The translations under genes were made by a program, and so were the position numbers. 64,000 nt of DNA from Hahella sp. (GTDB lineage: Bacteria; Pseudomonadota; Gammaproteobacteria; Pseudomonadales; Oleiphilaceae). Where the stretch lies: NCBI GenBank assembly GCA_028280065.1, contig JANQMN010000008.1, positions 1 to 64,000 on the forward strand, written 5' to 3'. The notes beneath the pieces are model-generated. The model did not search any database. It saw nothing but the letters and a program-made list of their open reading frames with translations, and was not told where the DNA came from. This document shows, piece after piece, positions 215 through 1,960 of the stretch; position 1 is the first letter of the stretch; each line of letters starts with the position of its first letter.

Positions 215-243
215 TTGACAGTAGATATGTAGCCACTTAAAAT
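215..243 (+). promoter_or_regulatory. sigma70 promoter of the S10 operon
   Basis: Consensus -35 TTGACA at 215-220, a 17-nt spacer, and -10 TAAAAT at 238-243. The start site would be near 250, giving an rpsJ leader of about 50 nt, much shorter than the roughly 170-nt L4-regulated S10 leader of E. coli. A perfect inverted repeat TTTAGA-ATTG-TCTAAA lies just upstream at 191-206. Confidence 0.85.
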
Positions 244-298: not shown

Positions 299-610
<312 letters not shown>

Positions 611-669
611 CTAGATCTGCAGATAGGCGCGCAACGCGCTGCTTCGTTAGTGTAACACTAGTAATCGTG

Positions 670-696
670 GCCATAGAGGGTGAAAGCCCCGTGCAC
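670..696 (+). promoter_or_regulatory. 23S rRNA-like element before rplC (candidate L4 autoregulatory site)
   Basis: The 27 nt from 670 to 696 read like helix-20-region 23S rRNA of domain I, with core ATAGAGGGTGAAAGCCCC at 673-690. From memory, the E. coli 23S counterpart has core AUACAGGGUGACAGCCCC, and about five of the 27 positions differ. The element ends two nt before the rplC Shine-Dalgarno (AAGAGGTG, 698-705). Two small hairpins precede it: GCGCG/CGCGC at 627-639 and TAGTG/CACTA at 648-660. Known: L4 binds 23S domain I in this area and regulates the S10 operon by leader mimicry in E. coli. Inferred: L4 (rplD product) may bind here and repress rplC translation. Confidence 0.55.
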
Positions 697-709
697 TAAG
701 AGGTGAAAA

Positions 710-1345
710 ATGGCAATAGGTTTGGTTGGCCGTAAGGCTGGCATGACTCGTGTATTTGAAGCAGACGGAACTTCTGTTCCTGTCACCGTTATTCAAGTCG
801 ACAAAAACGTTATTTCCCAAGTGAAGACCGTTGAACAGGATGGCTATAGTGCCATTCAGATTGCGGCCGGCTCGGTGAAAGCGTCGCACGTCAACAAGCC
901 GTCAGCGGGACACTTTGCTAAAGCAGGTGTCGAAGCTGGTTCGGTTCTTTGTGAATTCCGTTTGGATGCCGACTCCGATCAGTATAAACCGGGTGATGAA
1001 CTCACCGTGGAAATCTTTGAAGCTGGTCAAAAAGTCGATGTCTCCGGACGCTCTAAAGGTAAGGGTTTTGCGGGTGTGGTTAAGCGTTGGAATTTCTCCA
1101 TGCAGGATGCTACACACGGTAACTCATTGTCGCACAGAGCGCCTGGTTCTATTGGTCAGAACCAGTCTCCCGGCCGCGTCTTCAAAGGTAAGAAGATGGC
1201 AGGTCAAATGGGTAACAAAAATGTCACTGTCCAGTCTCTGAAATTAGTCCGCGTGGATCAGGAAAAAGGCCTGTTGCTGATCAAAGGCGCAGTTCCTGGC
1301 GCGACTGGTGCAGACGTTGTTGTTAAGCCTGCAGTAAAAGCGTAA
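710..1345 (+). CDS. rplC: 50S ribosomal protein L3
   Basis: The 211-residue product starts [16 protein letters not shown] and contains the conserved central loop [14 protein letters not shown] and the GKKMAGQMG segment, whose Gln is the usual site of N5-methylation by PrmB. L3 is an early-assembly protein whose extended loop reaches the peptidyl transferase centre. The ATG at 710 follows AAGAGGTG. rplD follows after 12 nt. The 23S-like element just upstream could couple its translation to free ribosomal protein. Confidence 0.98.
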
Positions 1346-1357
1346 GAGGGGTTGGAG

Positions 1358-1960
1358 ATGGAATTATCAGTAAACGGTGCAGGTACGGTTTCGGTATCTG
1401 ACGTTGCCTTTGCACGAGAGTTTAATGAAGCTCTGGTGCACCAAGTCGTTACCGCCTACATGGCAGGCGCGCGTCAAGGTTCCAAGGCGCAAAAGAGTCG
1501 CTCTCAAGTACGTGGCGGCGGCAAGAAGCCATGGCGTCAAAAAGGTACCGGGCGGGCGCGCGCCGGTACTATTCGCAGTCCTATCTGGCGTGGCGGCGGC
1601 GCTACTTTTGCCGCGACTCCTCGGGACTACTCGCAAAAAATTAATAAAAAGATGTTTCGTGCAGCCATGCAGGCCATTCTATCTGAGCTGGTTCGGCAGG
1701 AGCGTCTTGTTGTTGTAGAAGAAATGTCCGTTGATGCGCCAAAAACCAAAGTGTTTAACGCTAAATTGAATGGCTTGGGTTTAAGTAATGCGCTGATCGT
1801 AGCAGAAGAAGTGGATCAAAATTTGTATCTGGCTTCGCGCAATATACCTAATGTGGCGGTTTGCGATGCGACCGGGATTGATCCTTTGAGTTTGATTACT
1901 CATGAAAAGGTGGTGGTAACGGTGCCAGCTCTTAAGAAAATAGAGGAGATGTTGGGATGA
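1358..1960 (+). CDS. rplD: 50S ribosomal protein L4
   Basis: This 200-residue protein has the long conserved loop around residues 45-95, with [18 protein letters not shown], that lines the exit tunnel, and a C-terminal half with NALIVAEE and [11 protein letters not shown] chose ATG 1358, preceded by a GGAG site, over an in-frame TTG at 1352. In E. coli L4 also represses its own operon by leader binding. Here the candidate binding site is between rpsJ and rplC rather than in a long leader. The last four bases overlap rplW (ATGA). Confidence 0.97.

Follow-up and report, generated by a model that had tools for sequence, protein, structure and literature searches.

The closest described counterpart of the element discussed here is the leader of the S10 operon of Escherichia coli, which belongs to the same operon, has presumably the same regulator, ribosomal protein L4, and is likewise an RNA that competes with domain I of 23S rRNA for this protein. 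In competition for L4, a fragment of 23S domain I with the binding site of this protein prevails over the S10 leader, and conservation of the E. coli-type site reportedly does not extend to Pseudomonas (both reviewed in PMC10931766, section 3.3); in PMC7186457, 23S domain I RNA and the S10 leader are used as L4-specific competitors. Control from inside a ribosomal protein operon is represented by the S8 site of spc and the S7 site of str (PMC2704228). These two sites share the internal placement with the present element, whereas the proteins and the RNAs are different. The S8 and S7 sites relate to 16S rather than to 23S rRNA. The candidate L4 leader of Archaeoglobi (Eckert and Weinberg 2020), the only motif assigned to L4 among the 20 leader candidates of that study (PMC7247131), also stands before an rplC-rplD-rplW-rplB operon, but it is archaeal and is placed there outside the section on rRNA imitation (which deals with L20, eL15, S15 and S4). 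The rpsJ motif of Peptostreptococcaceae stands before rpsJ (PMC11109978).

The locus analyzed here comes from Hahella sp. and lies in a stretch of 64,000 nt (hereafter, the window), in the 99-nt gap between rpsJ and rplC (positions 611-709; the rpsJ stop codon ends at 610 and the rplC ATG begins at 710). The E. coli site lies ahead of rpsJ, in a long leader, whereas the Hahella element is internal and follows rpsJ. We consider it probable, judging from the sequence and its comparison across genomes, that this gap encodes a cis-acting RNA for L4 autoregulation from inside the operon, with rpsJ left outside the loop. The features of the region are listed in Table 1, where R1 denotes a covariance model built from 26 mRNA elements of several families of the order of the window, with no rRNA sequence among them.

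Table 1. Coordinates of the features of the rpsJ-rplC region in the window
Feature	Positions	Strand	Basis and remarks
Promoter-like TTGACA-17-TAAAAT 5' of rpsJ	215-243	+	Consensus scan only
rpsJ (S10)	299-610	+	ORF list and annotated E. coli homologue; 5' of the element
Hairpin GGCGCG-CAA-CGCGCU, outside the mimic	626-640	+	Predicted fold
GCUUC, predicted pairing with Shine-Dalgarno 700-704	641-645	+	Fold; not general in relatives
Whole putative mimic of 23S domain I H18-H19-H20	642-700	+	R1, 68.7 bits, E 1.1e-14; the score is partly by construction, the window sequence being 1 of the 26 seed rows
P1 5' strand (H18-like), pairs with 692-699	647-654	+	Minimum-energy fold of 640-712
P2 hairpin (H19-like), CAC 656-658 with GTG 667-669	656-669	+	Fold; covariation
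Core GGCCATAGAGGGTGAAAGCCCCGT, 22/24 identical to Hahella 23S	669-692	+	Local alignment
P3 hairpin (H20-like) GGGU-GAAA-GCCC	678-689	+	Fold
P1 3' strand, abuts the Shine-Dalgarno core	692-699	+	Fold
Shine-Dalgarno core GAGG of rplC	700-703	+	Sequence
rplC (L3)	710-1345	+	ORF list and annotated E. coli homologue; relatives; first gene 3' of the element
rplD (L4), proposed regulator	1358-1960	+	Named by gene order as in E. coli

The gap contains no forward ORF of at least 60 amino acids, so that protein-coding content was rejected; a reverse-strand ORF, 647-889, overlaps it. Rfam 15 has no family match at 611-709 at the gathering cut-offs, and at E<=10 the only hit in this interval is ASdes (620-643, 15.6 bits, E 3.1), outside the element; accordingly, a leader known to Rfam was rejected as well. 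No description of the element was found in the literature, a mention in supplements or subscription journals being possible. The apparent kind of regulation, ribosomal protein autoregulation by rRNA mimicry, is known; what would be new is the RNA and its location, and its distribution appears to be wide. Upstream, the leader of rpsJ had been put at about 50 nt in the original prediction, which is plausible in that the promoter-like site would give about this length, although a consensus scan is its only basis and finds 2 such sites in the region against a shuffle mean of 1.2. A strong terminator-like hairpin (117-146) is seen between rpsJ and the preceding gene, which presumably has a tuf-like end; a weak match to the Rfam L20_leader family (19-156, 22.2 bits against a cut-off of 58.7) rests on this hairpin. 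The assembly of the window amounts to 6.68 Mb in 151 contigs; no 23S rRNA was found in it and, for this reason, the 23S rRNA of a complete genome of the same genus serves as the Hahella reference.

The starting observation was a match of positions 670-696 to domain I of 23S rRNA with about five differences. Compared by eye with E. coli 23S nt 318-344, this stretch differs at 4 of 27 positions; the match is real, but its extent had been taken too small, these 27 nt being only the 3' half of a likeness of about 59 nt that covers a three-way junction resembling 23S helices 18-20 and ends at the rplC Shine-Dalgarno. The best local match between the gap and the Hahella 23S rRNA has a score of 38, whereas 1000 dinucleotide shuffles of the gap reach at most 31; among the 1937 overlapping 99-nt segments of the 64 kb, a score of 38 is limited to the three with this match, and the next best score is 30. 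With none of the 1000 shuffles as good as the 22/24 match, chance similarity was rejected.

The likeness is recognized from both sides. Model R1 matches 23S rRNA at the same place in all seven rRNA loci given (32.6-65.3 bits; in E. coli, nt 288-348 with 47.8 bits). Whole-genome scans with R1 yield matches in 25 of 29 relatives; for the five relatives with a located 23S (G010, G011, G019, G031 and G037), the 17 matches consist of 5 before rplC and 12 in 23S, and an extra match in G163 is a further 23S copy. The Rfam LSU model, in turn, finds two of the four mRNA elements tested (L157 with 38.4 bits at model nt 329-385 and L145 with 28.5 bits at 332-380, with no match to L081 or L001) and, in a whole-genome scan, the element of G135 with 44.2 bits. 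The latter is the best of these matches to mRNA elements, all of which stay below the gathering score of 50; by this cut-off, the element does not count as a 23S gene fragment of LSU_rRNA_bacteria (RF02541). The model of this family does recognize some mRNA elements at about nt 329-385, but the element corresponds to only about 57 of 2925 positions and resides in mRNA, and the copy in the window goes unrecognized. Such mimicry would be unusually literal, in that a model made from mRNA finds rRNA. The imitated stretch is, we presume, the region of the minimal 53-nt L4 site; a domain I fragment of this length, in work of 2000 associated with Stelzl, reportedly binds L4 and, independently, L24. 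The placement of the L4 site in domain I is taken from the literature cited above. With H18-H20 as the L4/L24 site, the element appears to resemble the rRNA binding site of a ribosomal protein encoded in the same operon.

The consensus of R1 consists of P1 (GUGU/ACAC), the P2 hairpin and P3 (GGGU/GCCC). In an alignment of 75 distinct sequences fitted to R1, 94.1% of the pair cells are standard and 7 of the 13 pairs change on both sides, with 81 such cells compared to 18.6 in shuffles; covariation scores 0.305, compared to 0.117 for shuffled alignments and at most 0.082 with slid partners. The MAFFT alignment of the seed gives similar values (0.320 against 0.116 shuffled and at most 0.094 slid), and when the consensus of the seed is folded without constraints, P1, P2 and P3 emerge along with two extra inner pairs. 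All 5 pairs of P2 change on both sides, and the two basal ones are standard in 75/75 sequences via several pair types. In the model, P1 has four pairs (650-653 with 693-696 in the window), which are standard in 93.7% of the cells of these sequences, and the four P3 pairs are standard in 75/75 and almost invariant. Covariation strongly supports only P2; P1 shows little variation and P3 hardly any, so that P3 rests on its identity with rRNA and not on covariation. Together with its recurrence before rplC (see below), these patterns mark the element as a conserved structured RNA located in cis to ribosomal protein genes.

In the window, the predicted fold of 640-712 is the junction with P1 extended to pair with the Shine-Dalgarno (-19.2 kcal/mol, z -2.11), whereas neither the whole 99-nt gap (z -0.29) nor the 47-nt core (z 0.32) folds better than shuffled sequence; the predicted fold of the element of one relative, L081, lacks P1. 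Two short hairpins had been proposed ahead of the match. The one at 626-640 is present in the predicted fold, and its region varies in sequence and length among relatives; the other, 648-660 (TAGTG-TAA-CACTA), is absent from the minimum-energy fold and competes with the junction. Elsewhere, P2 is much enlarged in L138, L167 and L133, and the P3 loop is enlarged in L143, the junction core being kept while the peripheral helices grow.

In 50 of the 59 distinct gaps, a GAGG, AGGA or GGAG begins 3-4 nt 3' of the ACAC strand that closes P1. The Shine-Dalgarno is paired in 54 of 88 predicted folds, compared to 44 of 82 when the upstream sequence is shuffled (one mononucleotide shuffle each); 4 of the 92 distinct sequences were dropped for want of a recognized Shine-Dalgarno, the control lost more for lack of an anchor, and the start codons of 33 loci of the order were placed by pattern. 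A general fold that sequesters the Shine-Dalgarno is therefore not supported and, pairing being no more common than in shuffled sequence, no intrinsic switch is claimed, occlusion by a bound protein being the simpler idea. Instead of blocking translation, L4 bound to the element could cause transcription attenuation within the gap, either Rho-dependent or intrinsic. This option shares the ligand with the preferred explanation, and the likelihoods of the two need not sum to one; it appears rather improbable, given that no terminator-like site was found in 611-709 and that the 3' end of the element coincides with the ribosome binding site. Still less probable is the recruitment by the mimic of an assembly factor or nuclease that reads 23S domain I (e.g., a helicase or a processing enzyme) and would set mRNA stability. 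Any factor that recognizes H18-H20 could recognize the mimic, but a location immediately next to the Shine-Dalgarno agrees with translational control, and the known internal controls, through S8 and S7, act through ribosomal proteins (PMC2704228).

Conservation was assessed in 110 rplC loci, 30 from the family of the window (L001-L030) and 80 named ones (L031-L110), two sets that overlap (e.g., L002 and L031, Hahella ganghwensis DSM 17046, are identical in the gap); one locus without rpsJ, L096, was left out, so that gaps are counted over 109. The core is kept in related gaps, as the original prediction required: its GCCCCGT-type form is found in 73 of the 109 loci, in 59 distinct gaps, and R1 confirms 64 elements in L001-L100 and 9 in L101-L110. 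With this conservation, and with a match far above shuffled sequence, both computational checks set out for the earlier reading, L4 repression from inside the operon, come out in its favor, and the reading appears supported. The 36 loci without the element are of the Idiomarina type (including the MAG L040) or belong to Pseudoalteromonas, Neiella, Xenorhabdus, Lonsdalea, the MAG L042 and L018. The last of these, a member of the window's own family, shows a clean loss (at about 566-590), the rpsJ TAA directly abutting the rplC Shine-Dalgarno, and the element is therefore dispensable there.

For the order at large, 40 loci were sampled from 37 of the 46 families other than that of the window, namely, those with rplC among the matches listed. 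R1 has a match just before rplC in 33 of these 40 loci and 31 of the 37 families, the families without one being f17, f19, f21, f25, f28 and f43. The weakest elements of the order are those of L140 (24.6 bits) and L143 (17.9 bits); the latter fell out of alignment A2, which holds 77 of the 78 elements. R1 has no match anywhere in G276, from f43; G178, of the same genus, has a 23S rRNA with nothing unusual at the site, so that the loss there is not explained by a changed 23S. In G116, G118, G120 and G124, from four families without the element, 23S rRNA was not found.

The element can also be compared with the 23S rRNA of its own host, and a usable pair of the same length is available in 11 of 18 genomes, the others having been inspected by eye. 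Across the 11 comparable genomes, 21-26 of the 28 core positions are identical. The differences include positions at which the host 23S rRNA has changed and the element has not: in f36, the 23S has CAGGTGATAGTCCTG where the element has CGGGTGATAGCCCCG, and in f16, f23 and f34, the 23S has CGATACAGGG where the element has CCATAGnGGG. The sole hint of tracking is seen in f26 (G163), where the element and the host's 23S share CCGTAG. On the whole, the element shows, in these comparisons, little sign of tracking the host's own 23S. A recent rRNA copy was ruled out, since the host's 23S departs from the common sequence at positions where the element keeps it (as in f36 and f34), and because the element does not follow the host it is best seen as an old, independently maintained imitation that is not a fresh copy. 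These data also bear on the possibility of a functionless stray rRNA fragment or chance similarity. Although rRNA fragments do occur in genomes, we regard this as having a negligible likelihood in view of the 1000 shuffles, the covariation, the fixed place in most families and the variants of the host's 23S that are not followed.

In other orders, sampled as 60 of the 133 genomes of the class with an rplC match, R1 has no match at E<=10 in any of the 60 loci. A second hairpin, with a loop of the TCAATCGnAAT type, is found at the same site, just before rplC, in 10 of these 60 gaps (L171, L176, L178, L183, L190, L196, L219, L222, L224 and L227). The pattern occurs in mononucleotide shuffles with a mean of 0.08 and at most 2, compared to these 10 of 60; it was written after viewing the sequences, so that this shuffle test is post hoc and the model R2, made from the ten hairpins only, provides a fairer test on the enterics. 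The hairpin covaries strongly (0.747 versus 0.263). The best non-members found by R2 are all sites in the leader upstream of rpsJ, namely, those of Lonsdalea (25.7 bits), Xenorhabdus (25.1 bits) and E. coli (18.8 bits), with the next at 12.2 bits. There is also an R2 match of 31.3 bits before rplC in a Woeseiaceae MAG (L096, 83-121). The hairpin matched in E. coli we take to be hairpin D of the S10 leader, which is critical for L4.

The order of the window is different in this respect: in its 40 loci, R2 finds nothing above 12.4 bits (E 1) and the loop pattern is absent from the gaps, i.e., no convincing E. coli-type hairpin is present, whereas the Hahella element has its likeness to 23S across a three-way junction. 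Having neither the location before rpsJ nor the TCAATCGnAAT loop hairpin, the element is not a member of the E. coli-type S10 leaders. For the loci of the Idiomarina, Pseudoalteromonas and Neiella types that were given to R2, the scores likewise do not exceed 11.9 bits, and the leaders have a different appearance. By eye, the rpsJ leaders of these three types (L033, L057, L067, L068 and L070) contain a similar hairpin followed by a GAATG-related stretch, and several of them have T-runs; they possibly represent another type of S10 leader. Inspection by eye also shows that certain gaps of other orders contain a stretch resembling a promoter, with a GC-rich GGCCCG-type hairpin after it; the clearest cases, with TATAATGCGCG, are L202, L209 and L221, and others are L172, L173, L178, L179 and L223. 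The arrangement looks like a separate start for the rplC operon within these gaps.

The choice of ligand draws on both parts of this comparison. L24 binds the same rRNA segment as L4, and the ligand might be L24, whose gene, rplX, follows later in the same cluster, acting either by itself or jointly with L4. The element spans the whole H18-H20 junction, about the size of the 53-nt L4/L24 fragment, and L4 and L24 are two of the essential proteins that bind the first 23S domains early (PMC2672003). Against L24, the element stands directly before rplC-rplD, which favors L4; the hairpin in the same gap of other orders resembles the L4-controlled S10 leader hairpin, which independently supports L4 at this site; and rplX is part of the spc operon, for which S8 is the regulator in E. 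coli (PMC10931766). On balance, involvement of L24 appears unlikely, with a higher likelihood than that of the other alternatives.

With L4 as the ligand, the following scheme can be proposed. When L4 is in excess over rRNA, free L4 would bind the imitation of H18-H19-H20 in the rpsJ-rplC gap, and the bound protein would block ribosome entry at rplC, the 3' strand of the imitation ending at the rplC Shine-Dalgarno. Expression of rplC, rplD and the coupled downstream genes, which are tightly spaced or overlap (the rplD stop overlaps the next start in an ATGA at 1957-1960), would then fall, and rpsJ, located 5' of the site, would escape direct repression. The computations themselves show the position of the element, its conservation, its fold with covariation in the H19-like stem, its likeness to 23S and the lack of a convincing E. 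coli-type hairpin in the 40 loci of the order, whereas we infer L4 as the ligand, repression as the effect, translation as the affected step, and polarity or coupling as the route to the downstream genes. It may further be that L4 control at rplC is ancestral among gammaproteobacteria, with two unrelated RNA modules at one internal operator position (a nearly literal 23S junction in this order and the E. coli-type hairpin in some others), and that the E. coli leader results from a later move upstream; this scenario is tentative, and we rate it somewhat short of an even chance.

The different hairpin that some other orders have at this site amounts to a natural experiment in which the position of the operator would have been kept while the RNA target was replaced or moved. 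For most of the sampled families of the order, the proposed L4 autoregulation offers a concrete, testable answer to the question of how a large ribosomal protein operon is controlled. S10 is also NusE, which functions in transcription antitermination. If the proposal is true, S10 would be uncoupled from L4 feedback, and if the internal L4 control is ancestral, much of the class would make S10 (NusE) free of direct feedback from L4.
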